Positions 1,955 through 28,643 of a DNA stretch of 64,000 nucleotides are shown here, in pieces (position 1 is the stretch's first letter; every line of letters begins with the position of its first letter). Source of the stretch: Rhodanobacter sp. (GTDB lineage: Bacteria > Pseudomonadota > Gammaproteobacteria > Xanthomonadales > Rhodanobacteraceae); contig SCRM01000005.1 of NCBI GenBank assembly GCA_004298045.1, positions 225,126 to 289,125 of the forward strand, written 5' to 3'. The notes below the pieces were generated by a model. The model was given only the letters and a program-made list of their open reading frames with translations. It had not been told where the DNA came from and did no database searches. The position numbers and the translations under genes were made by a program.

Positions 1955-2620
1955 TCAACAGCTTGCGCGGCCGCCTTTGAGCGAGCCGCAGGTTTGCAAC
2001 AAGGTGTAACCCCGCACCGGCGGCGGCCTGAGATTTGTCGGTGGCGGACGGTATGGGTGTTCATGGTTGAAGGGTGGGCGATAGCCGCTGTTCCAGCCAC
2101 CAAAGTAGGCCGGGACGGTCATGTAGTACACCGGCGGTTGCGCCAGGCTGTTCTGATAGGCCGCATTCTGCGCACGCAGCTGAGTGTTTTCGGCGGCCAG
2201 GCGATCGGTTTCCGCGGCCTGTGCAGCCGCTTGTGCCGCTGCCATGGCCTGTTGCTGTTGCGCGCGCGCCGCATCGGCGGCAGCTTGCGCCGCGATGGCG
2301 TCTGCCTGGGCTTGTTTGGCCTTGGCCTCCTGCGCTGCGTTGAACAGCGCCAGGCGCGCGGTGTAGAGCGAATCCAGATGGCGGGCCATGGCCCAGGCCT
2401 TGGCCAGCTGCGGCTGGCCCAGGCGCAGGTAATGGTCGATGGTTTCCGCCGCGCTCGCCTGGTGCAGCAGCTTGCCGTTGCCGTCGTTGCACGGCTGGTC
2501 GGTGTAGGTCACCTGACCGGCCGTCACGCACTTGTAGATGTTCTGCGCGCCGGCCGGGAACGACCACGCCACCAGCGGCGTGGCGATGAGACAGCAGGCG
2601 AAGCGGGTCGGGCTGTTCAT
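1955..2620 (-). CDS. DUF4124-domain-like secreted protein with Ala/Gln-rich coiled coil
   Basis: Signal peptide then QNIYKCVTAGQVTYTDQPC, typical of DUF4124. Confidence 0.75.
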   Translation of the reverse strand: MNSPTRFACCLIATPLVAWSFPAGAQNIYKCVTAGQVTYTDQPCNDGNGKLLHQASAAETIDHYLRLGQPQLAKAWAMARHLDSLYTARLALFNAAQEAKAKQAQADAIAAQAAADAARAQQQQAMAAAQAAAQAAETDRLAAENTQLRAQNAAYQNSLAQPPVYYMTVPAYFGGWNSGYRPPFNHEHPYRPPPTNLRPPPVRGYTLLQTCGSLKGGRASC

Positions 2621-2672
2621 GCCGCGATTATGCCCGTGCACGGGGTTGCCGCAGTGTGAGGCCGGGGAGCTT

Positions 2673-2954
2673 TCAGACGCTCTTGGAGCGGCGTCGCGAC
2701 GGCTTGGCCGCACTGGCGGCAATCAGCGTCTGCAAGTAGGCGATGCCATCTTCTTCCGGAAAAAACGCGACCACTTCGGCCACCGTCAGCTGGTAGCGCT
2801 CGCGCAAGGCAAGAAACTCCACTTTGGCGCGCGCCAACCGTGACTTGGGGTTGACGACAGGCGTTGCGGCGGCAGGCGGTGACGCCGGCTGACTGGTATC
2901 CAGTGCACTCAGCTCGGTCTGGAACTGGTGGAAATCGTAGGGCTTGGAGAGCAT
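2673..2954 (-). CDS. Hypothetical protein
   Basis: ORF MLSKPYDFHQFQTELSALDT... with basic C-terminus. Confidence 0.5.
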   Translation of the reverse strand: MLSKPYDFHQFQTELSALDTSQPASPPAAATPVVNPKSRLARAKVEFLALRERYQLTVAEVVAFFPEEDGIAYLQTLIAASAAKPSRRRSKSV

Positions 2955-2999
2955 GTGACCACGCGTGATGCGAAAACGCGGCCATTGTGGCACAGGCTT

Positions 3000-3584
3000 T
3001 CAGGTGCCGAACCCGCTGGCGGTCGCCTGCATCCGACCGGCTTGCCGCCATTGCTGCAACCCGGCGACCGCCATGGCGACGAACAGCGCGTACAGCACGG
3101 CGGTGATCCGGAGATCCTTGTAGACGTACTCGCCGACGTACACCACGTCGACCACGATCCACAGCCACCACGCTGCGGTGTGACGTTGTGCCTGCCACCA
3201 TTGCGCGACGAGGCTGTACGCGGTGAGCGTGGCGTCCAGCCATGGCAGGGCTGCGTCGGTGTAGTGGCGCATGACGGCGCCAAGCGCGAGCGCACCGAGC
3301 GCGCCGAGCGCGACGTGCCAGGTCGCGCGGCCTGGCGGCAACCGCGCGATGCGCACGCGGCCGTCGGTACCCAGGTGCTGCACCCAACGCACCCAGCCAT
3401 AGCCGATCATCACGCCGAACGCGCCCTGCAGCAGCGCGTCCGAATACAGCTTGGCGTCGACGAATACCCACGCGTAGACCACCACCGACACCAGCCCGAC
3501 CGGCCAGCACGCGGGGTGGCGGCGGGTGGTGAGCCACACGCCCGACGCACTGAGCACCGCGGCGATGAGCTCGACCAGCGTCAC
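3000..3584 (-). CDS. PnuC-family transporter, likely the thiamine-specific PnuT type by riboswitch context
   Basis: Multi-TM protein of PnuC type (GVWLTTRRHPACWPVGLVSVVVYAWVFVDAKLYSDALLQ); adjacent downstream of the TPP-riboswitch-led TonB receptor gene. Confidence 0.85.
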   Translation of the reverse strand: MTLVELIAAVLSASGVWLTTRRHPACWPVGLVSVVVYAWVFVDAKLYSDALLQGAFGVMIGYGWVRWVQHLGTDGRVRIARLPPGRATWHVALGALGALALGAVMRHYTDAALPWLDATLTAYSLVAQWWQAQRHTAAWWLWIVVDVVYVGEYVYKDLRITAVLYALFVAMAVAGLQQWRQAGRMQATASGFGT

Positions 3585-3585
3585 G

Positions 3586-5739
3586 TCACAGGCCGATGGT
3601 GACGGACAGACGCGCCAGGCGCGGCGCGCCGGGGAACAGGTAGCTGTCGCCCCAGGCGCTGCCGGTGTCGCGCCAGTAGCTGTGGTCGAACACGTTGTCG
3701 ACCGCCAGCCGCCAGGTCAGGGTGCGCTCGCCCCAATGGGCGGTGTAGCGCAGCCCGGCGTCGAACACGTTGTAGGCCGGCACGCGCACCCGGCCATCCG
3801 CGGTGGCCACGTTGGGCGACGCATAGCGCCAGCCGCCGAGCAGGGCGAGCTGCGGCAGCATGGGCAGGCTGTAATCCAGATACGTGGCCACCCGCAGGCG
3901 CGGCACGTTGGCCACCTGGTGGCCGTCGTAGGACGGCGTGCCGGTGTTGCGGGCCTCGGCGCGGATCAGGTTGGCGCTGGCATCCAGCCGCAGGTGCGTG
4001 GTGAGCTGCCCGTGCGCACCCAGCTCGATGCCGGTGTGCACCTCTTCGCCGTGCTCGACGAAGGTGTAGCCGGCAGCCGAGTCATCCGGCTGCGCGTACT
4101 GGTAGGGCTGGCGGATGTGGTACAGCGCGGCGCTCAGGTTGAACGCATCGCTGAGTGCGTATTTCACACCGGTTTCGAGCTGACGCGACAGCCGTGGGCC
4201 GAGGATCGCATCCGGATTGCTGGCCCAGTACGGCGCGGCCAGGCCGAGCGACAAGCCTTCGACGTAGCTGGCGTAAACCGTGATGGGCGTGGTGGGCTGC
4301 CACAGCACGGCGGCTTGCGGCAGGGTGCGGCTCATGCGGGTGTTGCGCGTGAGCGTGCTGCTGCTGTCGTAGTCGCGTTCGTTGAGGCGGACGAACCGGT
4401 TGCCGAGGATGGCTTGCCAGTGGGTACCGAAGTGCAGGCGGTCCATGGCGAACAGCGAGTGCTGCCAGCTGGCGAGCCGGCGCGCCGAAGCACCGGGCTG
4501 ATTGGGTGAAGGCGCAAAGTACGGGGGGTTGTTGTCCGCGATGTTGGCGCTGCCGACGTAGTCGTAGACCTCGATGCGGCGGTCGATGGTGCGGCGGAAG
4601 GCGCTGGCGCCGAGGGTCAGGTCATGGCTCACTGCGCCCGTGTCGAAGTGGCCCTGGAGCGTGGCACGCGCCTCGTCCGCCACGCGGGTGTCGTCGGGGC
4701 TGCGGTAGTCATAGATGTCGTAACCACCGTCGGGAGCGAAGTAGGCCCCGGTGGTGAGCAGGTTCGCGCAGGCATCCTGATAGAAGCAGCCGTAGGCGAA
4801 CGCGACGTTGTCCTGGATCACGCCGCGGCTGTGGCCGGCGGCAAGGTTGGCGTTCCAGTCGTCGTTGAACGCGTAGCGGAAGCGGGCGCTGGTGTTGGCG
4901 CTGTGGATGCCCACCGGGAGTTGCCACGGCTCGTAGCCCAGCAGGCGCGTGGGGTCGGGGTGCTGCGGGATGACCGTGCCGCCGAGCAGTTGATAGCCGG
5001 AGACCGAGCGCTGCGCGCTGGTCTGGTAGTCGCTGTCGAGTTCCAGCGTGGCGTTTGGCGCGATCCGCCAATCCGCCGCAAGCGAGTAAAAGTTGCGTCG
5101 GCCATTGGCATGCTGCACGTAGGAGTGGATGTCCTCCCACGCGAGATTGGCGCGCACGCCGAAGCTGGGCGTAAGCCAGGTGCCGACGTCGAGCGCGCCG
5201 TAGCGCGCGCCGTGCGAGTCGGTGCCGAGCGTCACGTCGCGCACCTCGGCCGGCCGCTTGCTGACGTAGTTCACCACGCCGCCGGGTTCCATCACCCCGG
5301 CATCGAGCCCGGCGAGGCCGGAAAGCACCTCCACCTGCTGCTTGTCCTCCAGTGCCACCTTCTGCTCGCCGACCAGGGTGAGACCGTTCAGGCGGTAGCC
5401 GGTGGCGAGGTCGAGCGGATAGCCGCGGATCGAGATGTTCTGGTAGTAGCCCACGGCCGCGTAGTTGTCGCCAAGCGCGGCATCGGTGCGGGCCAGCTCC
5501 GACAAGGTGCGGATCTGGCGATCGTCGATCAGCGCGCGCGGGATCACCGTGACCGAGGCCGGCGTGTCGTGCAGCGGCGCGTTGCCCCAGGTCGCCAGTT
5601 TCGCGTTGTTGCGGTCGGTGTGCGTCGTGGCCTTGACGTGTATGGCGGCCAGGTCGGTGGTTTGCACCTCCGCGGCGCGCGTAGCGGGCGCGAGGGCGGC
5701 GAGCAGGGCAAGCAGCAGGGAAGTACGGGGAAGCGTCAT
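3586..5739 (-). CDS. TonB-dependent receptor, probably for thiamine or a precursor
   Basis: Plug domain (ASVTVIPRALIDDRQIRTLSELARTDA), C-terminal beta barrel (FDHSYWRDTG...PRLARLSVTIGL); located directly downstream of a TPP riboswitch. Confidence 0.92.
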   Translation of the reverse strand: MTLPRTSLLLALLAALAPATRAAEVQTTDLAAIHVKATTHTDRNNAKLATWGNAPLHDTPASVTVIPRALIDDRQIRTLSELARTDAALGDNYAAVGYYQNISIRGYPLDLATGYRLNGLTLVGEQKVALEDKQQVEVLSGLAGLDAGVMEPGGVVNYVSKRPAEVRDVTLGTDSHGARYGALDVGTWLTPSFGVRANLAWEDIHSYVQHANGRRNFYSLAADWRIAPNATLELDSDYQTSAQRSVSGYQLLGGTVIPQHPDPTRLLGYEPWQLPVGIHSANTSARFRYAFNDDWNANLAAGHSRGVIQDNVAFAYGCFYQDACANLLTTGAYFAPDGGYDIYDYRSPDDTRVADEARATLQGHFDTGAVSHDLTLGASAFRRTIDRRIEVYDYVGSANIADNNPPYFAPSPNQPGASARRLASWQHSLFAMDRLHFGTHWQAILGNRFVRLNERDYDSSSTLTRNTRMSRTLPQAAVLWQPTTPITVYASYVEGLSLGLAAPYWASNPDAILGPRLSRQLETGVKYALSDAFNLSAALYHIRQPYQYAQPDDSAAGYTFVEHGEEVHTGIELGAHGQLTTHLRLDASANLIRAEARNTGTPSYDGHQVANVPRLRVATYLDYSLPMLPQLALLGGWRYASPNVATADGRVRVPAYNVFDAGLRYTAHWGERTLTWRLAVDNVFDHSYWRDTGSAWGDSYLFPGAPRLARLSVTIGL

Positions 5740-5931: not shown

Positions 5932-7059
5932 TCAAGCGGCGCGGATGGTTGCCAGTAGACGGCGGCCGTCGGTGCTGCGGAACCAGGCGGCATGGCCGCG
6001 CAGGAAGGTGTCCCACGCCACGTCGGCATGCGCGCGCGAATGCGTGGCGCCGTGGAAGTAATCCACTTCGGAAATGGCGAAATCGACGTGCACGATCGGC
6101 AGCAGCTCGGCGAGCAGGTCGAGATCCGCGCGGGTCAGCGGATGTTCGTCCTGATAACCGGCTATCAGCGCGAATGCCGTACCGGGACGCGCGCGGTTGG
6201 TGCCGGGTTCTAGCCAGGCGATGGCGTTGCGCTCGATCGCGGTGGCGAGGTCGAACAGCGCAAAGGTGCGTGCGGCCAGGCCGAAATCCAGCACGTCGGT
6301 GATGCGGGCGTCGGCGCCGTCGTCGCTCCAGCACAGGTTGGAAACATGCCAGTCGCCGTGTGTCCAGCATCGCGGCTGGGCGCGCAGGCGCGCGGCGGTT
6401 TGCGCGTGTTGCGGCCCGAACACGGCGGCGAGTTCGGCCTGCCACGGACGTCCGGACAGATAGACGGCCAAATCCGGCCGCTGCGTGAGCTGCGCCTGCA
6501 GTGCGGCCACCGGGTCGGCGGCTTCGATCAGTTCACTGCGCGCCACCAGCCGATGGGTGGAGCGCTGGGCGGCGGCGTAGCCGTCCGCAGCGCGGTGGAA
6601 GCGCGCAAGCATGGCGCCGGCGCGGTGCGCGCGGCCAAGATCAGTCAACGGCACCCACGACATGGTGTCGCGATACACGTCGCGGCCGCGGGCCGGTGCG
6701 TGGATTTCGTACACCCAGTCGCACAGCGCGGTGGCGGTGCGGCCGTGGCGGTCGGCAAGCACCGCCGGCACCAGCATGCCGTGGCCGGTGAGCCACGCGG
6801 CGAAGGCGTGTTCCTCACCCAGGCTCACGACGCTGCGTACGCTGCGGTGATGGCGCTTGACGAACACACACCCGCCGCCGGTATCGACCAGTGCGGCGCT
6901 GGAGAGCGGGCGCGGGCTGTGCCAGACGATATGCCGTGGCGTGCCAAGCGCTGGGTAGGCATCCAGTACCCGGGCCAGCTCGGTCGCCGTCAGTGGCGGC
7001 CAGTCGGGCGGCATGTCGTCGCCGGCAAGGCCGTGGACGTGGTGTTCGGGGAAGCTCAT
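5932..7059 (-). CDS. Aminoglycoside phosphotransferase / choline-kinase-like phosphotransferase
   Basis: Kinase catalytic loop CWTHGDWHVSNLCW and ITDVLDFGLAARTFALFDLATAIER. Confidence 0.8.
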   Translation of the reverse strand: MSFPEHHVHGLAGDDMPPDWPPLTATELARVLDAYPALGTPRHIVWHSPRPLSSAALVDTGGGCVFVKRHHRSVRSVVSLGEEHAFAAWLTGHGMLVPAVLADRHGRTATALCDWVYEIHAPARGRDVYRDTMSWVPLTDLGRAHRAGAMLARFHRAADGYAAAQRSTHRLVARSELIEAADPVAALQAQLTQRPDLAVYLSGRPWQAELAAVFGPQHAQTAARLRAQPRCWTHGDWHVSNLCWSDDGADARITDVLDFGLAARTFALFDLATAIERNAIAWLEPGTNRARPGTAFALIAGYQDEHPLTRADLDLLAELLPIVHVDFAISEVDYFHGATHSRAHADVAWDTFLRGHAAWFRSTDGRRLLATIRAA

Positions 7060-7173
7060 CTGCGCGCAGCATCGACCGGAGGGCGAAGTCGGCATTATCG
7101 CCGAGCCGGCGCGCCGCTTTCGTGCGCCGCCGGCATCGCGTCTAATGCGAGGCTTTCCCGCGCGTGATCGCCG

Positions 7174-8076
7174 ATGTCCGCCTTGGTGCTGCTGTTTGTC
7201 TGTCTTGCGCTTGGCGTGCTGGTGCGCCGTTTTGCGCACCCACCCGAAGGTACGGTGCGCGGCATCAACTGGTGGGTACTGAACGTGGCGCTGCCGGCAC
7301 TGGTGCTCGAGCTGATCCCCAAAGTGCGGCTCGATCCGCAGTTGTGGTTTCTCGTGGTGTCGATGTGGCTGGTGTTTGCCGGTGCATGGTTGGTATTTGG
7401 CTGGCTGGGGCCGCGGCTGGGCTGGTCGCGGCAACGCACGGGCGCGCTGATCCTGGTGTGCGGGCTGGGCAACACCGCGTACATGGGGTACCCGATGATT
7501 GCCGCGTTGCGTGGCGAAGCCGGCTTGTCGCTCGCGGTCGTGGCCGACCAGCTTGGCGCATTCCCGGTGTTGGCTTCGGTGGCGGTAGTGGTGGCCTCGC
7601 TGTATGCCGGGCGCGCGCCGCATGCACGCGTGATCGTGCGGCGCATTCTTACGTTTCCCGCGTTCCTGGCCTTGCTGGTTGGCGTGGTGGCGGGCCGCCT
7701 CGGCGGCTGGCCGGCGTGGCTCGACGGCGTGTTCCACCCGATTGGCGAAACGCTGACGCCACTCGCGCTGTTTTCCGTGGGCATGCAGTTCCGCCTGCGT
7801 GGCAGCCGCGGCCAATGGGGCGCCACCGCGTGGGGCCTGGGGTGGAAACTCGCGGCGGCGCCGGCCGCGTGTTGGGTACTCGGCGTTGCGGCCGGCGTCG
7901 GCGGCATGGTGCTGGTGGCGGGCGTGCTGCAGGCGGCGATGGCACCGATGGTGTCGGCCACGATCCTGGCCGACGAATACGGCCTCGACCCCGAACTGGC
8001 CAACACCGTGCTCGGTCTCGGCATCCTGGTTTCGCTCGTGACGGTGCCGCTGGCCAACGCGTGGCTGGGCACGTGA
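7174..8076 (+). CDS. AEC family transporter (auxin efflux carrier-like permease)
   Basis: INWWVLNVALPALVLELIPKV...GLGNTAYMGYPMIAAL...; ten-TM hydrophobic pattern. Confidence 0.88.
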   Translation: MSALVLLFVCLALGVLVRRFAHPPEGTVRGINWWVLNVALPALVLELIPKVRLDPQLWFLVVSMWLVFAGAWLVFGWLGPRLGWSRQRTGALILVCGLGNTAYMGYPMIAALRGEAGLSLAVVADQLGAFPVLASVAVVVASLYAGRAPHARVIVRRILTFPAFLALLVGVVAGRLGGWPAWLDGVFHPIGETLTPLALFSVGMQFRLRGSRGQWGATAWGLGWKLAAAPAACWVLGVAAGVGGMVLVAGVLQAAMAPMVSATILADEYGLDPELANTVLGLGILVSLVTVPLANAWLGT

Positions 8077-8107
8077 CGACCTCCGTCGGCGTGCGATCAT
8101 GCTGCCG

Positions 8108-8506
8108 ATGAACGAGTACGACGCAAGCACTGGTATCCGTGCCGATCAGTGGTTGTGGGCGGCGCGGCTTTTCAAGACGCGCGGCCTCGCCAAGCAGGCC
8201 ATTGAAGGTGGCAAGGTCACCGTCAATGATGGCGGCTGCAAGCCGGCGAAGCTGGTGCATGTGGGCGACGTGCTGCAGGTGACGCGCGGCGCGGAGCGGC
8301 TGGAAGTCGAGCTGCTGGCGGTGTCCGCGCAACGGGGCCCGGCCAGTGCGGCGCAGGCGCTCTACCGCGAAAGCGCGGCCAGCGTGCAGGCGCGCGCGTT
8401 GCGCCGTGAGGAGCAGCGCCTGATCGGCCGCCAGGCGCCGCCGCGGCGGCCGGACAAGCACGCGCGTCGACGGTTGCGCGACCTCAAGGATCAATCGGCG
8501 CCGTGA
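8108..8506 (+). CDS. hslR: Heat shock protein 15, RNA-binding S4 domain protein
   Basis: IRADQWLWAARLFKTRGLAKQAIEGGKVTVNDGGCKPAKLVHVGDVLQV; basic C-terminus. Confidence 0.92.
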   Translation: MNEYDASTGIRADQWLWAARLFKTRGLAKQAIEGGKVTVNDGGCKPAKLVHVGDVLQVTRGAERLEVELLAVSAQRGPASAAQALYRESAASVQARALRREEQRLIGRQAPPRRPDKHARRRLRDLKDQSAP

Positions 8507-18133: not shown

Positions 18134-18226
18134 GGAGAGATGCCCGAGAGGCCGAAGGGGCTCCCCTGCTAAGGGAGTATCGGGTTAAACACCTGATCGA
18201 GGGTTCGAATCCCTCTCTCTCCGCCA
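18134..18226 (+). tRNA. tRNA-Ser (anticodon GCU), CCA encoded; island attachment site at 3' end
   Basis: GGAGAGATGCCCGAGAGGCCGAAGGGGCTCCCCTGCTAAGGGAG...GGTTCGAATCCCTCTCTCTCCGCCA; long variable arm and class II tRNA fold. Confidence 0.97.
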
Positions 18227-18229
18227 GAT
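18213..18229. repeat. attL (direct repeat overlapping tRNA-Ser 3' end)
   Basis: CTCTCTCTCCGCCAGAT, identical to 28627-28643. Confidence 0.92.
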
Positions 18230-18420: not shown

Positions 18421-18441
18421 CTCCTGCACACGCCTGCATGG
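18421..18441. repeat. 21-bp direct repeat, copy 1
   Basis: CTCCTGCACACGCCTGCATGG, identical to 19063-19083. Confidence 0.85.
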
Positions 18442-19083: not shown

Positions 19084-19315
19084 CGTCAGCGCTAATCGCG
19101 GTACTGGCGCGCCCTCTGCGATCGGTGCATATTCATACGCGGGGGATCATCCGCATGGAACGCAGTTAGGGGCGGCTACGAAGGACGACCATGCAGGCGC
19201 AAGTTGCGCTGCGCATGAGAGCGGTCACGGATACGCGAACCAAGCGAAATCTGCCAACGGAGGAAGCCGCTCGCCGCAATGGTGCTCCGAGCGCGGATGT
19301 TAGTTGGAGAATTGC

Positions 19316-20179
19316 ATGGCTTATACAGTTGCCGTTTCCTTTGATCAGTTCTACGAACAGATCAATCTTGGAGGCGATCACCGCAGTACTGCTAATGGTC
19401 GTAAGGACGATATCGTTGCGAAGCTCGGCAAGTCGTTTGAAATTGTCGAAGCATTCAGCACTGGTTCGATACCTAAGTTTACGGCGCTACGACAGCACGC
19501 CGATCTAGATGTGATGGTCGCACTGCACTACGACAAACACATCAAAGGCAAGACCCCAACTGAAGTTCTGCAAAGCGTTCGGAATGCGTTGTCGCAATGG
19601 CGAACGGGTGTCCGCCGCAATGGTCAAGCGGTAACCCTTAGCTACACGACCTGGCCCAGCGTGGACGTCGTTCCCGTATCACGATCTGTCGATGGCAACG
19701 GCAAGGTTACGCACTACAACGTACCCGACTCCAATACGGACAAATGGATCGAGTCCAAGCCGAAGGAGCTTGCCGCAGCCATCGAATCAAAGGCATCAGA
19801 CTGCGGCGCCAATTTCAGGCGGATCATCAAGATGATCAAGCACTGGAATCGCGTCCATAGTGACTACCTCCAGAGTTATCACATTGAAGTATTGGCCATC
19901 AAACTTTTCCATTCCGATCTCAGCGATACACCTTGGCAGGTCTTCCAGTTTTTCAGCAACGCCAGACCGCTTCTTGAAAGCTATTTGTGGTACGAAAATG
20001 GATTCGCCGACGACTACCTGAGTTGGTCTGACCGACAGGAAGTGCTAAAGCGCTTCGATACTGCAATCTCGAAAAGCAGAGATGCGTGGCACAAAACCTA
20101 CGGCACCAACAGCGATCACAAAGGTGCTATCGAAATTTGGCGGCAAATTTTTGGAAGTGACTTTCCAGCCTATGGATAA
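19316..20179 (+). CDS. CD-NTase / SMODS-type nucleotidyltransferase (CBASS signal synthase)
   Basis: Nucleotidyltransferase signature STGSIPKFTALRQHADLDVMV (GS..DLDV) with third acidic motif PSVDVVPV; followed by an S-4TM effector gene. Confidence 0.87.
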   Translation: MAYTVAVSFDQFYEQINLGGDHRSTANGRKDDIVAKLGKSFEIVEAFSTGSIPKFTALRQHADLDVMVALHYDKHIKGKTPTEVLQSVRNALSQWRTGVRRNGQAVTLSYTTWPSVDVVPVSRSVDGNGKVTHYNVPDSNTDKWIESKPKELAAAIESKASDCGANFRRIIKMIKHWNRVHSDYLQSYHIEVLAIKLFHSDLSDTPWQVFQFFSNARPLLESYLWYENGFADDYLSWSDRQEVLKRFDTAISKSRDAWHKTYGTNSDHKGAIEIWRQIFGSDFPAYG

Positions 20180-20184
20180 TACAG

Positions 20185-20952
20185 ATGTCACGCTCTGATC
20201 CCATCCGAAAGGAATATTTTGAAGCAGTCGAACTGGGCGACAAGGCTTCTGACATCCTGTTCTACATCGGTGCCGCTCTATCCATTCTCAGCCTACTTGT
20301 TGACCAGACAAAGTACCCCGTTCTTTCAACTGTAGTCCTGATCGCCTTTGGCTTATCGACGCTGCTGTTGTTTGTCATCGGGCTTGTTTCCCGTCTTTAC
20401 CTTGCGCCTCGCGCGCAGGATAAACGCCTCCAAGATTTCTTTAGCAGCGCTTGTGGCGTCAACCTGACCCATCAAAAAACAGACGGCTACTACAACAACA
20501 ATCTCACCGATCCATTAAAGCGGATGGCCGCGCAGGTACTGGAGAATAGCCACTTCAGCAAAGCCATTGCTCTGCGAATGGCAAGAACTGAGCGCATAAA
20601 GATAGTTTTATATGTCGCACTTTGGATAGTTTGTGTTCTCTGCCGACAAACCGAACTTGGTGTCATCGTTGCCGCATCACAGGCAATATTCAGCGAGCAG
20701 TTGGTGGCGCGATGGGTTAGGATCGAATGGCTTAGAGTCCGATTTGAGAAAGCATTCGGCGATGTCTACAAACTATTTCAATCACAACCGCCGACCGAGC
20801 AATTCAATGCAATCGCGCTGGAGGAAGTTTGCCTGTACGAAACCGCGAAAGCCAATGCCGCAATTACCCTGTCATCTAGGATTTTTGAAGATTTGAACCC
20901 TTCTCTTTCCAGCGAATGGGATGACATCAAAGCTGCCGTTGGAATCCAATAA
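20185..20952 (+). CDS. S-4TM family putative pore-forming effector
   Basis: Four hydrophobic segments (ASDILFYIGAALSILSLLV; TVVLIAFGLSTLLLFVIGLV; IKIVLYVALWIVCVL; ELGVIVAASQAIFSEQLV); 5-bp gap from the CD-NTase gene stop. Confidence 0.82.
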   Translation: MSRSDPIRKEYFEAVELGDKASDILFYIGAALSILSLLVDQTKYPVLSTVVLIAFGLSTLLLFVIGLVSRLYLAPRAQDKRLQDFFSSACGVNLTHQKTDGYYNNNLTDPLKRMAAQVLENSHFSKAIALRMARTERIKIVLYVALWIVCVLCRQTELGVIVAASQAIFSEQLVARWVRIEWLRVRFEKAFGDVYKLFQSQPPTEQFNAIALEEVCLYETAKANAAITLSSRIFEDLNPSLSSEWDDIKAAVGIQ

Positions 20953-21516: not shown

Positions 21517-21843
21517 TCAACGTCCTGCCGGGCGGCCCGGTCGGTCATGGAGCGGCTCAACGTCCAAGTTCAGCGCCCGCAGCGCGGCGAGCATTTGGGC
21601 ACGGGCGTCGCGCTCGGCGGGCAGCAAGTGATGGGCCTTGCGTTGACCGAACCGATCAAGAATGGTCATGCCGTCGCGAGCAATGGCCGCCTGCGCGTGA
21701 CGCATCCGGTCGAACGCTTCCAAGCCCGTTTGCAACAGCAAAAGGCCCGCGTCGTCCTCAATTTCGTACTCGGTTCGCAGCCGTTTCCACCATGCTTTCG
21801 CCTCAGTGGATAGCCCTTTGGGTGCGGTTTTCGCTGTGGACAT
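21517..21843 (-). CDS. Phage terminase small subunit, P27 family-like
   Basis: KGLSTEAKAWWKRLRTEYEIEDDAGLLLLQTGLEAFDRMRHAQAAIARDGMTILDRFGQRKAHHLLPAERDARAQMLAALRALNLD. Confidence 0.88.
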   Translation of the reverse strand: MSTAKTAPKGLSTEAKAWWKRLRTEYEIEDDAGLLLLQTGLEAFDRMRHAQAAIARDGMTILDRFGQRKAHHLLPAERDARAQMLAALRALNLDVEPLHDRPGRPAGR

Positions 21844-22249: not shown

Positions 22250-22440
22250 GGGCGTACTTCCTTCGCAAGCTGCTGTTCAAAGACTTCCATGCGCTGCTCG
22301 AAAGCCGTCATGCGATCCTTGAGTTGATGGTTGAGGCGCACGAGATTGGCGGCGAGTTGCGTGATGTCGCCGCGCGTCGCGGGTGCGTCGCGTTCGGCGG
22401 GGGTCATGCCGGCGAATAGCTGGTCAAAGCCGTTCATCAC
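22246..22440 (-). CDS. Small coiled-coil-like hypothetical protein in capsid gene cluster
   Basis: 64-aa ORF overlapping the capsid gene stop by 4 bp; heptad-like LAANLVRLNHQLKDRMTAFEQRMEVFEQQLAKEV. Confidence 0.55.
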   Translation of the reverse strand: MMNGFDQLFAGMTPAERDAPATRGDITQLAANLVRLNHQLKDRMTAFEQRMEVFEQQLAKEVRP

Positions 22441-23444
22441 CAGTTGGCTCCCGTGATGACCGCGACGCCGCCGACGCGCTGGTTTTCCCAGTTCGCGCGG
22501 ATCACTGCCTTAAGAGCCACAGTATTTGTGGCAAACATGCTGACCATCTCTGCCGGCGAGGTCGGTGTATCGGCCATGACCAACGAGGTCTGATCGGACT
22601 GGCTCAACTCGATACCTTCCAGCGCCAGCGCGATCCCGGAAGCGTCGATCAATGCGAGCTGGCCGCCGGAGCTGTCGCGGGGACTGAACCGGGACACCAG
22701 CAGCGGGATGCCGAGAATCGAGCCGCCGCGCGGGCCAGCATCGGGGAACAAGAAGCTGCCATTTGCGCCGCGTACCATCGCCAGCCCCGTCGCGGTGTCG
22801 GGGTCGGTGACGAGGTAGGCGGATGCCATGTCGCCCGCGAACGCGGCCACCAGCGCCTTGAGATCGGCGGCAGCATCACTGCTGGCGGCGATGGTCGGTG
22901 CGCCGTGCGTGACAGAAGCTGGGATGGCGTCGGTGCCCGCGTTGGCCGGATCAAGGAGTGCCGAGTCCAGCGCACCGACGCAGCCGGTGTCCAGGTCGGC
23001 CTGCAAGCCCGCTTCGGCGGCGGGCGATTCGGCGCGGAGCGCTTCGGTGGTGGTGCAGATGATGGCGGCGACCTTCTTCACGGTCAGCATGGAACCGGCG
23101 AGCACGGGCTTGAGCAGCGGCACGGGTGCAGCTTCGGAAACCCAGAAACCTTGCGCGCCGTTCTTGCGGGCCAGCATGAGCTTGTTCATCGGAACGGGGC
23201 GCGTGCCGACGAGTCCGCCCAGCACGGACTTTTCGCGCACTGCGCCGGCGTACTCGACCGCTTCAGCGGTGCCGAGGTCGCCGGTATTGATCGCGGATTG
23301 CGCGGCCTTGGCGATGGCGAAACCTTCGGCAGGCCAGCGGGCCGCAGCGAAGGTGTTGATTTGTTCGGGTGAACCGCCGCCGCCGAACTGTGCGGCCTTC
23401 ATGCGGATGAAACTGCGGCCGCGCGGGCCAGTGGAGAACGACAT
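22437..23444 (-). CDS. HK97-like phage major capsid protein
   Basis: VPMNKLMLARKNGAQGFWVSEAAPVPLLKPVLAGSMLTVKKVAAIICTTTEALRAESPAAE...ALIDASGIALALEGIELSQSDQTSLVM. Confidence 0.83.
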   Translation of the reverse strand: MSFSTGPRGRSFIRMKAAQFGGGGSPEQINTFAAARWPAEGFAIAKAAQSAINTGDLGTAEAVEYAGAVREKSVLGGLVGTRPVPMNKLMLARKNGAQGFWVSEAAPVPLLKPVLAGSMLTVKKVAAIICTTTEALRAESPAAEAGLQADLDTGCVGALDSALLDPANAGTDAIPASVTHGAPTIAASSDAAADLKALVAAFAGDMASAYLVTDPDTATGLAMVRGANGSFLFPDAGPRGGSILGIPLLVSRFSPRDSSGGQLALIDASGIALALEGIELSQSDQTSLVMADTPTSPAEMVSMFATNTVALKAVIRANWENQRVGGVAVITGANW

Positions 23445-23537: not shown

Positions 23538-23852
23538 CTACAACTCATCTTCTTTTTCTTGATGCGCCGCTTCCCACGCCGCCAGTTCGGTGAGGCTGTA
23601 TGACCAGCGCGAGCCGTTGACGGTGAGATGGTGTGCGCGCGGGCCGGTGCTGGGGCGAGCATTACGCTTGCCGGCGAGAGTACGTGCAGCCATGCCTAGC
23701 AGCTTCGCCGCGTTTTCCTCCGAGACCCGACCGCTGGCCATCGGGTAACCCTTGTCCACGCATTCCGCCTCCAGCGCCGCCACACGCGCGTCTAGCTCCG
23801 CATCTTCATCGTGGAACTCGAACCGACACCGGGGGCATGTGTGGGTAGTCAC
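23538..23852 (-). CDS. Zinc-ribbon / HTH-like small protein (GTG start)
   Basis: CPRCRFEFHDED zinc knuckle half; SEENAAKLLGMAARTLAGKRNA HTH-like segment. Confidence 0.55.
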   Translation of the reverse strand: MTTHTCPRCRFEFHDEDAELDARVAALEAECVDKGYPMASGRVSEENAAKLLGMAARTLAGKRNARPSTGPRAHHLTVNGSRWSYSLTELAAWEAAHQEKEDEL

Positions 23853-24017: not shown

Positions 24018-24295
24018 CCGACGGTTGCCGACGATACCGACGATAAAAACCTACTCCTTACCCTCTATCTCTCTATTCCCTCTTTTTTTGTTTTATTCCC
24101 TGCAAATAGAAAGTAATCGTCGGTATCGTCGGCAACCAGTAATACCAAGGCTTAGAACCGTCGGCAGGATCGTCGGTCTATCGTCGGTAGGATCGTCGGC
24201 AGCGCCCATCGAACATCCTGCCGGCAACCTCGCTGCGCTCGCGCGGCAGGCCGAAGGGGGGTCTATCGTCGGTAGACCGACGATCAACCGACGAT
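24018..24295. repeat. Iteron cluster flanking an AT-rich segment; putative replication origin of the island
   Basis: Ten exact copies of ATCGTCGG/CCGACGAT at 24028, 24037, 24116, 24125, 24169, 24180, 24192, 24265, 24277, 24288, with ~9-12 bp spacing inside clusters, around AT/pyrimidine-rich 24045-24115. Confidence 0.82.
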
Positions 24296-24316: not shown

Positions 24317-25846
24317 TCAAATGTCAGCCAGTTTTTTTCCATCTTCATTGAGGTCGATCCCGCGCCAGCACCGCTTTTTTCCATCGGTTCCGCGCCTGAC
24401 ACGCCCGTCATGCAAACCCGCCAGCGCTTCACTCAGTTTGTTGGAGAAAACGGTGGGCATCTCCTGTTGCTGGCGCCACACGTTGTACTTCTTGGTGAAG
24501 TAGGTCGGGTCAACTTTCTCATCAGGCCCAAGCACGCAGTAGTCCTTCACAAATTGGGCAAGTGGGTTTCCGGTTTCGTACCAATCTTCGCGGGCCTGCT
24601 CTGAACTTTCCGGCTCATCGAACCGGCCGCGTTCACGCAGCCGCCGATAGCCCTCCATCGCCCACAGCGCAATGCCCGGCAGTTCGTCGGTCAGCTTGTC
24701 CAGCAGCCGGTGATCCTCCCGATCAAAAAACGACCGGCCCAACTGGAGGATCAGGAAACGCGAGCTGATGGCGTCCGAACTATCTGCGAACTGCGGCAGC
24801 GTATTCGTCAACATCATGACCCGGACGCCGAGCTGATCGGTGATCGGCTCCTTGCCTTTTCGATCCACCATGACCGGATCATTGCCCACAATGCGCAGCA
24901 GGTTCTCGACAACCGCCATCGTGTCCTTCTTACTCGACAGCTTGGCATCGCTCACAAGGAGCAGCCGCTTGTTGATGGATTCCTGAAGCCCGAACCGTTC
25001 ACCAATGGCGTTGATCGCCGGGCTGGACACCATCGACTTGCCCAACAGCCCCTTTAACACTCCGCCGATGGTGCCTTTGCCAGCACGCTTCGGCCCGACG
25101 ATGAGCAGCGCCTTCTGCGCCCACATATCGCCAGACAGCACGTAGCCGAACCACTCTTGCAGCAGGGCAATTTCGTCGGCCTTGTCGCCGAACAACTCTT
25201 CAAGAAACTGAAGCCAGCGCTCAGGCTCCGGCGCATCCGGGTCATAGCGCCAGTCCGCACCGTTCGGCACGAACGTGTACAAGGTCGGCTTTGACTTGCC
25301 GGACAGCATGTCCACAATCTCGCCGCGACAGACCATGCAGCCTTGCCCATCGACCTCGCGCCAGCTTCCGTCCGAATCGCGCACACAAGGCACTGCCAGG
25401 TCTGACGGGATCGTTTCGTTGCTTTCGATCTGGAAATAGATGGTGTTGACGTTCGGCTGCGACGTCACGAAGTCATGAATGTCGCCTTCCGCATCGACCT
25501 GCCGGCAGAGCAGCAGCCGCTTGAACAAGGCGCTTTCCACATCCTTCTTCGTCACCAGCACCCAGCGCTGGCCCTTGTACTGGTACCAATCTTCCCGGTA
25601 GTAGACCAGCAACCGAACGCTCTTCCTGGTGAAGTAGCGATCCAGCACGATCTGCGCCGCGCCGAACGGATTGGTACGCAGCGACGGCAGCACCGGGTTG
25701 CGCTCATCTGCCTGCGCAATGGCTTCTTCTTCCGCAGCAAGTAGCCGCTGCGCTTCCTCGCGTATCGCTTCATCATCTAGCGGGTGTGAAGGTTCTTGTG
25801 TCGCGCCCGTAGCGCCAGCACGGCGTCCTTTCTTCGTTGTGCTCAC
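24317..25846 (-). CDS. D5/P4-family SF3 replicative helicase (phage/plasmid primase-helicase-like)
   Basis: Walker A LLIVGPKRAGKGTIGGVL; RLLLVSDAKL; VMMLTNTLPQFADSSDAISSRFLILQL. Confidence 0.9.
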   Translation of the reverse strand: MSTTKKGRRAGATGATQEPSHPLDDEAIREEAQRLLAAEEEAIAQADERNPVLPSLRTNPFGAAQIVLDRYFTRKSVRLLVYYREDWYQYKGQRWVLVTKKDVESALFKRLLLCRQVDAEGDIHDFVTSQPNVNTIYFQIESNETIPSDLAVPCVRDSDGSWREVDGQGCMVCRGEIVDMLSGKSKPTLYTFVPNGADWRYDPDAPEPERWLQFLEELFGDKADEIALLQEWFGYVLSGDMWAQKALLIVGPKRAGKGTIGGVLKGLLGKSMVSSPAINAIGERFGLQESINKRLLLVSDAKLSSKKDTMAVVENLLRIVGNDPVMVDRKGKEPITDQLGVRVMMLTNTLPQFADSSDAISSRFLILQLGRSFFDREDHRLLDKLTDELPGIALWAMEGYRRLRERGRFDEPESSEQAREDWYETGNPLAQFVKDYCVLGPDEKVDPTYFTKKYNVWRQQQEMPTVFSNKLSEALAGLHDGRVRRGTDGKKRCWRGIDLNEDGKKLADI

Positions 25847-26049
25847 GCATGGCTACCCGACTTGACGCGGAACTTCTCAAGCACGCGGTCGCAGGAGTCG
25901 GCATGGATGAGGGTGCGCTGACCAAGCTTGCTAACTTCGAGGTCGCCGGACTTGATGAGTTCGTAGATCGTGGAGCGGCCCACACCGAGACGGCGCGCAG
26001 CGTCCAGCGGGGAGTACGCCAGCGGCGCGGGGGGCTTGTCGTCTTTCAT
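25843..26049 (-). CDS. AlpA/excisionase-like HTH DNA-binding protein
   Basis: YSPLDAARRLGVGRSTIYELIKSGDLEVSKLGQRTLIHADSCDRVLEKF; 4-bp overlap with helicase gene. Confidence 0.85.
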   Translation of the reverse strand: MKDDKPPAPLAYSPLDAARRLGVGRSTIYELIKSGDLEVSKLGQRTLIHADSCDRVLEKFRVKSGSHA

Positions 26050-26186
26050 GCTGCGTCCTCCAGAAAGGTCAGACGCGAGACGGAAGTGTTCGCGTCCGTA
26101 GCCGCTTAGGTAACTGGCTACGGACACGAATTAGATACCACACCTTAGGAAATTATCGACGGTGATTTCCGGCGAATTTGTTCATC

Positions 26187-26720
26187 TCACTTAATTTGGC
26201 TGCCGTGCTTGCTGATTTCCTCACGATAGGAGCGCATTGCCTGCTCGCGAACTTCTTCTGTGAAGCCTACTCGTTGCAGCAAGGGTTCCATGAATTCTTG
26301 AAGAAGGGCATCCGTTTCCTGAAAGAAGGAACGATCATCCTCAAGCTGCTTGATAAGAGGCTCGACCTGGTCGAGTGCGACCGCATCTGCCGATTCGCGG
26401 AAAAAATGGTGTGCGAGCACGCGACGTCTCTTATTTGCCTCCACGAGTCGGTCTTGTAAGTTCGACGGAATTGAGCTGTGCTTTGCGAGGCGGTTGGAAA
26501 GCTCTTTCAACGTTTCGGCAAAACGACTGTCGTAATAACGATCATGTTCTTCAGGAGTCCACCGGCCGCTAGTTTTTTTATACAGATCAAGCCACACAAG
26601 GGCATTCACAATTCCGTGTTCGAGAACTTGAACAAAATACATGGCTAGGCCATATCTTGCACACAACCTTTTGAAGGGCGGGTCATCCTTATCCCCATAA
26701 CCGTCATCTGTCATATTCAT
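26187..26720 (-). CDS. Hypothetical alpha-helical protein with Rx4H-like motif (possible HEPN-like)
   Basis: ORF containing LVEANKRRRVLAHHFFRESADAVALDQVEPLI. Confidence 0.6.
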   Translation of the reverse strand: MNMTDDGYGDKDDPPFKRLCARYGLAMYFVQVLEHGIVNALVWLDLYKKTSGRWTPEEHDRYYDSRFAETLKELSNRLAKHSSIPSNLQDRLVEANKRRRVLAHHFFRESADAVALDQVEPLIKQLEDDRSFFQETDALLQEFMEPLLQRVGFTEEVREQAMRSYREEISKHGSQIK

Positions 26721-26740: not shown

Positions 26741-27235
26741 TCAATGGAATATCAATGTCGCGAGGCGACGAAGAGACATTTTTGCTAAATGCTCGGCTTC
26801 GGGTGCGGTGGAACGCAAGGCTAACTCCTTCACTTTACGCGCGGTTTCCAACTGGCTACGTTCGCGGATTTGGATGGATACTTGCTCCGCGAAAGCCTGT
26901 GCAAGATTCCTGCGCTTCATTGCCTCCTGTTTTCTTTGTTGAGCGGCGGAATCGGAAGCATTCTTGCGTTGTGTCTGAGATTTTCTATCGCGCTCGACAT
27001 GCGGCAAGGCATCGAGTTTCAGCGCTTCTTGCTCGGCACCCGATATGTCATTCAACACAGCCATGCGCCCAACATCGGTGGTTGCGGCCTTGTAGCCTTC
27101 GTCAAGAAGGTCGGCGGTCAGTTGCAATTCTTCGTGTCGGCGAAGTTGCGCAATGCGCGCCGCCGGGGCCTTCGACTTCAACGAGCGCACTATTGCGTCG
27201 AAGCTTGGTGGAGTCCGAACCCGCTTGGCGCTCAT
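26741..27235 (-). CDS. Hypothetical protein, 4-bp overlap with integrase stop
   Basis: 164-aa basic helical ORF translated directly after int on the same strand. Confidence 0.6.
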   Translation of the reverse strand: MSAKRVRTPPSFDAIVRSLKSKAPAARIAQLRRHEELQLTADLLDEGYKAATTDVGRMAVLNDISGAEQEALKLDALPHVERDRKSQTQRKNASDSAAQQRKQEAMKRRNLAQAFAEQVSIQIRERSQLETARKVKELALRSTAPEAEHLAKMSLRRLATLIFH

Positions 27236-28440
27236 GCCTTCGCCCCTTCGCGAATGCCGCGCACGTTGCCGGCCGGCGCTGGCTTTGCGCAGTACTTCGC
27301 CCAGTCCGCCATGAGGCGAGCGCGCTTGTTCAGTAGATCGGTACGGCGATAAACAGCCTCTACGCCTTGCACCGCGTGCGCCAGTGCGGCCTCGGCCACG
27401 TCGCGCGGATAGGCGGTCTGGTCAGCGGCCCAATCGCGGAAAGTGCTGCGGAAGCCGTGGGCGTCGAAGCCGGGGCGAATGGTGCGCAGCGCCTTGAGCA
27501 TGGCGGCGGTCGTGATGGGCTGATTTTTCTTGGAGCTGGGGAACACGTAGGCATTGACGCGGGGCAGTTTGCGCAGTAGTTCGACGGCGGGAGGCGATAA
27601 CGGCACGCGATGCTCCTTGCCCGCTTTCATGCGCTCGCCCGGAATCGTCCACGTCGCGCCGTCTAGGTCGAACTCGGCCCATCGCGCGTTCGCAACTTCG
27701 CCAGGGCGGCAAGCGGTCAATATTTGAAGCTCCAACGCCAGTGCCCCGAGTCCAACTTGCTGGCGAAGTTCGGTCATGAACGTCCCGGCTTCGCTGTAGG
27801 GTAGGGCGGCGCGGTGTTCAACCTTCTTTAGCTTCGTCGGCTTGGGTAGAAGATTCTCAAGATGCCCGCGCCAGCGCGCCGGATTCTCCCCGCTGCGGAA
27901 CTTGCGAGCTGTCGCCCAATTCAACACCGCTTCGATCCGCTGCCGGACGCGCGTGGCGGTTTCGGTTTTCGTCGTCCAGATCGGCGACAGCACCTTGATG
28001 ATAAGGTCGGTGTCGATCGCCCCCACGGGCAGCGGTTGGAGGATCGCTGCATAGGTGTCGAGCGTCGATGACCACTGGGCAGCGTGCTTTTCGTTGCGCC
28101 AGCCGTCGCGGTGCGCGTCCATGTACATCTGCGCACACTGGCCGAAGGTAGTACGTCGAACACCTTCCACCTTGGACGCATGGATGGGGTCGATACCTTC
28201 GCGGAGTTGCTGCCGACACTCCAGCGCATCGCGGCGAGCCTTGACTAGCGGGACGTCGCGAACGGGGCCGAGTCCCTTGTCACGGGTCTTGCCGGTGTTA
28301 CGGTCTCGCCATCGAAAGACCCACCGTTTGCCGCCGCGCGCTTTGTCGGGGGGTACGTACAAGTACAACCCGCCTCCATCAGAGTACCTTCCCGGCTTCG
28401 TCGTGTTCTTGACACCAATCGCTGTGAGTTTGTTGTCCAT
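27232..28440 (-). CDS. P4-type tyrosine integrase (DUF4102 N-terminal domain)
   Basis: N-terminal TKPGRYSDGGGLYLYVPP; catalytic ACRPGE, HGFRSTFRDW, ALAHAV, VYRRTDLL. Confidence 0.96.
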   Translation of the reverse strand: MDNKLTAIGVKNTTKPGRYSDGGGLYLYVPPDKARGGKRWVFRWRDRNTGKTRDKGLGPVRDVPLVKARRDALECRQQLREGIDPIHASKVEGVRRTTFGQCAQMYMDAHRDGWRNEKHAAQWSSTLDTYAAILQPLPVGAIDTDLIIKVLSPIWTTKTETATRVRQRIEAVLNWATARKFRSGENPARWRGHLENLLPKPTKLKKVEHRAALPYSEAGTFMTELRQQVGLGALALELQILTACRPGEVANARWAEFDLDGATWTIPGERMKAGKEHRVPLSPPAVELLRKLPRVNAYVFPSSKKNQPITTAAMLKALRTIRPGFDAHGFRSTFRDWAADQTAYPRDVAEAALAHAVQGVEAVYRRTDLLNKRARLMADWAKYCAKPAPAGNVRGIREGAKA

Positions 28441-28626: not shown

Positions 28627-28643
28627 CTCTCTCTCCGCCAGAT
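28627..28643. repeat. attR
   Basis: CTCTCTCTCCGCCAGAT, identical to 18213-18229. Confidence 0.92.

Follow-up and report, generated by a model that had tools for sequence, protein, structure and literature searches.

The 64-kb stretch of DNA analysed here (64,000 nucleotides, referred to as the window) carries a 10.4-kb island integrated at tRNA-Ser(GCT), with an exact 17-bp repeat at both ends. The empty site is represented in four genomes of the same genus (G426, G433, G434 and G274), where the joined left and right flanks match across the junction. The minus-strand genes follow the order integrase, two unassigned ORFs, AlpA-like HTH protein, helicase, iterons, Zn-ribbon/HTH protein, major capsid protein (MCP), an unassigned ORF, small terminase (TerS) and another unassigned ORF; the plus-strand cargo that comes after them pairs a CBASS-like CD-NTase with a 4TM effector. 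The main features, in window coordinates, are:

18213–18229, plus strand: attL core CTCTCTCTCCGCCAGAT, at the 3′ end of tRNA-Ser(GCT) (18134–18226)
21517–21843, minus strand: small terminase subunit, TerS (Terminase_4 and phrog_83)
22437–23444, minus strand: phage major head (capsid) protein, MCP (phrog_617, E 9e-28)
23538–23852, minus strand: Zn-ribbon and HTH-like protein (start taken from relatives; the longest ORF reaches 23954)
24018–24025, minus strand: degenerate box CCGACGGT (ACCGTCGG), a near-match
24028–24044, minus strand: iteron pair A, two CCGACGAT boxes with 9-bp spacing, in the left arm of an inverted repeat (24023–24044)
24045–24115, no strand: core with pyrimidine tracts, proposed DNA-unwinding element, 71 bp, lowest GC of the window
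24116–24132, plus strand: iteron pair B, two ATCGTCGG boxes with 9-bp spacing, in the right arm of the inverted repeat (24116–24137)
24157–24199, plus strand: iteron triplet C (24169, 24180 and 24192, 11–12 bp spacing) with the near-match ACCGTCGG at 24157
24265–24295, both strands: iteron cluster D (plus box at 24265, minus boxes at 24277 and 24288), lying some 21 bp from the stop codon of the helicase
24317–25846, minus strand: D5-type SF3 helicase, 509 aa (DUF5906; D5_N below cut-off in the domain search), proposed iteron-binding initiator
24350–24565, minus strand: winged helix predicted at the C-terminus of the helicase (residues ~428–499, AlphaFold2 model), proposed iteron reader
25843–26127, minus strand: AlpA/excisionase-like HTH_17 protein (domain/family match)
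27232–28440, minus strand: P4-type tyrosine integrase (domain/family match)
28627–28643, plus strand: attR core CTCTCTCTCCGCCAGAT, the exact 17-bp repeat shared with attL

The island possesses the features of PICI elements, namely an integrase, an AlpA-like regulator, a rep gene, TerS and a specific att site, and in gene content it corresponds to a phage satellite of PICI type that brings a capsid gene of its own. Among the head genes of cfPICIs, MCP and TerS were found, while portal, protease and large terminase were not recognised in the island's ORFs; two small conserved ORFs have no assignment. The MCP matches the C-terminal part of phrog_617 alone (positions 354–626), and the N-terminal part of the phage family is apparently missing. 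None of the island's genes was recognised as a primase. The CBASS-like cassette, at 19304–20952, consists of a CD-NTase and a 4TM/SLATT effector (PADLOC E-values of 1e-104 and 8e-109); the same cassette (83% and 76% identical) occupies the same position in a related island, L018, which has different iterons. The ORF at 26187–26720 encodes a 177 aa protein with no family match, whose RRRVLAHHFF stretch resembles a HEPN-type motif by eye. A motif of about 24 bp, GCGCTCCTGCACACGCCTGCATGG, occurs in direct orientation at 18421, 19063 and 23946 of the window and in the related islands L015 (3100 and 8310), L017 (11791 and 17044) and L026 (9299). Its copies bracket the capsid–terminase module, one lying between the iterons and the Zn-ribbon gene and another past the module, and the motif may act as a packaging site or else mark a recombination seam. 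Among the papers searched, none links phage satellites with Rhodanobacter or Xanthomonadales.

The region directly 3′ of the helicase gene contains ten exact ATCGTCGG boxes within 24028–24295, all at the coordinates and on the strands given in the original prediction, with the first box about 21 bp past the helicase stop codon. Both near-matches (ACCGTCGG) reported there are real as well, although the second starts at 24157, not 24158. The site had been described as non-coding and lying at the 3′ end of the helicase gene, which holds, a spurious plus-strand ORF aside, with the minus-strand helicase stop at 24317. ATCGTCGG is matched 19 times in the 64-kb window against an expectation of 3.5 ± 1.9, a count reached in none of 100 shuffles. 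The best octamer in the 450 bp 3′ of the helicase has ten copies, compared with a maximum of three in 200 dinucleotide shuffles, and no other 450-bp stretch in the locus (within 9 kb) contains ten copies of an octamer. The cluster is the only one of ATCGTCGG in the 10.4-kb island, and a pattern search of the genome itself found paired boxes at this site only. The flank consensus over 46 boxes from five origins is (T/G)ATCGTCGG(T/C)A.

The two facing pairs of boxes, predicted to lie across about 70 bp of AT- and pyrimidine-rich DNA, proved to form a perfect 22-bp inverted repeat (24023–24044 and 24116–24137) with a 71-bp spacer that is 66% AT. This core, with a GC content of 34% compared with 58% for the island and 66% for the flanking chromosome, is the lowest-GC 71-bp stretch in the whole 64 kb, and its plus strand is rich in pyrimidines. 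A hairpin was considered for the inverted repeat; the single-stranded DNA can fold (z = −9.6), but the arms are explained by the facing iteron pairs. An RNA element was also rejected: no Rfam family scored above threshold here, and a DnaX match of 15 bits was far below its cut-off.

The helicase gave no match to a Prim-Pol, Toprim or other primase domain in domain searches of its 509 aa. According to a profile search, its best PDB sequence match is the SaPI5 primase–helicase (7ola, E 8e-24). The AlphaFold2 model of the helicase (mean pLDDT of 81, pTM of 0.67) has structural matches to poxvirus D5/E5, ASFV PrimPol and SaPI5 Rep, with 7ola among the best. The winged-helix region of the model has the order helix–strand–helix–helix–strand–strand, and its blocks mostly have a pLDDT of about 76–89. 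The C-terminal domain is the fastest-diverging part of the protein: in the relatives with the same boxes its identity is 52–77%, compared with 85–93% for the AAA+ core, and in the relatives L018, L024 and L025 the respective values are 25–29% and about 61%.

Similar arrangements of an initiator gene followed by iterons are known in several mobile elements. In the origins of Gram-negative PICIs (EcCICFT073 and relatives), iterons are located immediately 3′ of rep in two sets flanking an AT-rich stretch, as in the island, and the rep–ori segment replicates a plasmid (PMC6092414). These elements also share with the island an AlpA-like activator gene, an integrase at one end and, in some of them, TerS. 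The island differs from them in its iteron, the presence of an MCP, a Rep without a recognised primase domain and its host, which is Rhodanobacteraceae-type and close to Rhodanobacter (L003, one of the related islands, comes from Rhodanobacter sp. C01). In SaPIs, it is the C-terminal domain of Rep that reads the iterons, which lie just 3′ of its gene, and the SaPI primase has been reported to be non-essential in vivo (PMC7581432). The SaPI5 primase–helicase (PDB 7ola/7om0) resembles the island's protein in its helicase fold and in the iterons directly downstream of its gene; it differs in having a fused primase and in its distant sequence (about 16% identity in the structural alignment). The D5_N helicase of SCCmec, Cch2, binds direct repeats located downstream of its own gene, again through the C-terminal domain (PMC7581432). 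Cch2, like the island's helicase, is a D5_N-type helicase without a fused primase, but its origin has only three 5-nt iterons and its partner is the primase–polymerase CCPol-MP, which is not seen in the island.

Satellite P4, invoked as the precedent in the original prediction, was found to be a poorer guide. P4 has a fused primase and a second cis site, crr (in part PMC6092414, PMC7145576). Were the island's origin of this type, the helicase would act like P4 alpha, with a fused primase, on a split origin composed of ori1 and a distant crr. P4 alpha and its ori1/crr belong, like the site studied here, to a satellite with a P4-type integrase and a D5-related helicase, and the AlpA-like protein, the remote P4-family (D5) helicase and the very presence of iterons fit such a scheme. 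But the island has a single iteron cluster and no second distant cis site, its helicase has no primase domain match, and the closest solved relative of this helicase is the SaPI5 primase–helicase. A P4-type origin is thus very unlikely, and the comparison with P4 is weaker than that with PICIs and SaPIs because neither the fused primase nor crr was found in the island.

The reading of the site as a PICI-type origin served by the helicase can be followed through related islands. The same boxes were found in L004 (IMG/VR) and in L015, L016 and L017 (genomes of the family). In these four islands, the helicases are 76–81% identical and 8–10 ATCGTCGG boxes lie at the same spot. In an alignment of five origins, 94% of the window-box columns are invariant, compared with 40% of the spacer columns. 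A fixed order is observed past the helicase stop: two or three forward boxes, then a reverse box in three of the five origins, then a reverse triplet (11–12 bp), a reverse pair (9 bp), the core and a forward pair (9 bp). The triplet and a core bracketed by inverted iteron pairs occur in all five sister origins, and the 9-bp pair spacing is kept in L004, L015, L016 and L017, the last three of which have degenerate single boxes in the two pairs. The triplet pattern was found in only four of 234 family genomes, all with this island, and a reversed-pattern control gave none. A search of IMG/VR for the same pattern returned 27 contigs, nearly all with one-orientation arrays, many of them within ORFs, so the triplet alone is not diagnostic outside the family; a D5 helicase together with balanced boxes in both orientations was present in the known relative only. 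A helicase profile search at class level found no further members.

Islands with more diverged helicases have different boxes. L018, whose helicase ORF is 5′-truncated near the contig edge and is about 51% identical, represents the same island with the same CBASS cargo and contains ten TGCGTCGC boxes. L024 and L025 (50% identity) possess ATCGTCCC boxes, and L022 (32% identity) has eleven GGTCAGGG boxes. In the nine helicase loci, with four octamers among them, the densest octamer cluster of each locus is located directly 3′ of the helicase; the density of the clusters in L018, L024, L025 and L022 was not reached in shuffles. In L018 and L024, too, a pair with 9-bp spacing and an inverted pair lie on either side of an AT-rich core. 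Three other loci with D5 helicases of 31–34% identity (L019, L020 and L021) have no iterons 3′ of the gene, and the iteron rule is therefore not universal in the helicase family. The covariation of box and helicase across the relatives is confounded with common ancestry, except in the case of L026.

L026, a metagenomic contig from IMG/VR, has the backbone of the same island, with an integrase, MCP and TerS 78%, 77% and 75% identical to those of the window. Its helicase slot (2320–4960) is occupied by unrelated RepB_primase and AAA_25 genes with 11 CGAAGGGA boxes behind them; the D5 helicase is absent and there are zero ATCGTCGG boxes. The comparison of homologous islands for covariation between iteron and helicase, proposed with the original prediction, speaks for an origin read by the helicase: as the helicase and its C-terminal domain change, so does the octamer, and in L026 boxes and rep gene are exchanged together. 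Since helicase and boxes are replaced together, the boxes track the replication gene and not the integrase, AlpA, capsid, TerS or Zn-ribbon protein, and the swap separates the box reader from every other DNA-binding protein of the island. A distant capsid-carrying relative, L039, contains a DUF3987 helicase (6323–8287) followed by GGGTAACG iterons, which makes this the third helicase family seen here to have iterons of its own.

The same comparisons bear on whether the boxes are an operator array, that is, sites through which the AlpA-like or the Zn-ribbon/HTH regulator controls the downstream capsid–terminase operon. The boxes are located upstream of the genes of the Zn-ribbon protein, MCP and TerS on the same strand, and both candidate regulators are encoded beside the site. 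However, L026, which lacks ATCGTCGG boxes, encodes an AlpA 81–89% identical to those of the window, L015 and L017 and a Zn-ribbon protein 67–76% identical to those of L004 (76%), L015 and L017; conversely, L016 has the same boxes despite a Zn-ribbon protein just 26–32% identical to those of L004, L015 and L017. A promoter and terminator scan of 23.5–24.5 kb found neither, including no sigma-70-like promoter, and an operator array needs no melting core between inverted pairs. Such an array is very improbable as the explanation of the site. The Zn-ribbon/HTH protein, similar in islands with different boxes and dissimilar in islands with the same ones, and AlpA, whose similarity between islands does not track the boxes, were both rejected as box readers. 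The helicase may still have a dual role, also autoregulating the downstream operon. A packaging site (pac/cos) recognised by the small terminase is hardly credible: the island encodes TerS and satellites carry packaging sites, but when L026 or L018 is compared with the other islands, TerS retains 58–81% identity and the boxes differ completely, and the boxes adjoin the replication gene, not TerS. For each of these proteins, the reading was rejected because protein similarity does not follow the boxes.

The site is therefore very probably, judging from sequence comparison, the replication origin (ori) of a capsid-gene-carrying satellite, of PICI type and read by the D5-type helicase; this origin belongs to the already known PICI/SaPI kind. 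The proposal that the helicase encoded at 24317–25846 reads the island's ori is supported by the same boxes found with similar helicases, other octamers with diverged ones and the joint replacement of both, with PICIs and SaPIs taking the place of P4 as the leading precedent. The iterons, their layout, their conservation and their linkage to the helicase are established by the present analysis. By analogy with work on SaPIs and Gram-negative PICIs, binding, melting, a double hexamer and autonomous replication would be expected. After excision of the island, the helicase would bind the ATCGTCGG iterons via its C-terminal winged helix, nucleating on the two 9-bp-spaced inverted iteron pairs that flank the 71-bp core, where it would probably form two hexamers that face each other. 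Extra loading sites would be provided by the outer clusters (24157–24199 and 24265–24295). The core would then melt, the hexamers would load onto the single strands, and replication would be carried out by a host or helper polymerase, with the primase supplied in trans; a host or helper primase may serve the island.

Whole cassettes of helicase and repeats appear, from their sequences, to have been swapped between related islands. The exchange of initiator and iterons in one backbone is what is new here, with a single metagenomic contig, L026, as its main support. The evidence leans somewhat towards a joint proposal: a Rhodanobacteraceae lineage of capsid-carrying satellites would trade its initiator together with the matching iterons as an exchangeable unit (D5/DUF5906, RepB-primase/AAA_25 and, distantly, DUF3987), and the primase-less D5 Rep would set iteron identity via its winged helix, giving the series ATCGTCGG, ATCGTCCC, TGCGTCGC and GGTCAGGG.

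With these results, satellites of the Rhodanobacter group join those with PICI-type origins. The islands also provide initiator winged helices that occur naturally with different iterons, among them one clean exchange within a single backbone, so that the rule by which D5-type initiators read DNA can be tested directly. Which satellites are able to share a cell may depend on iteron identity.
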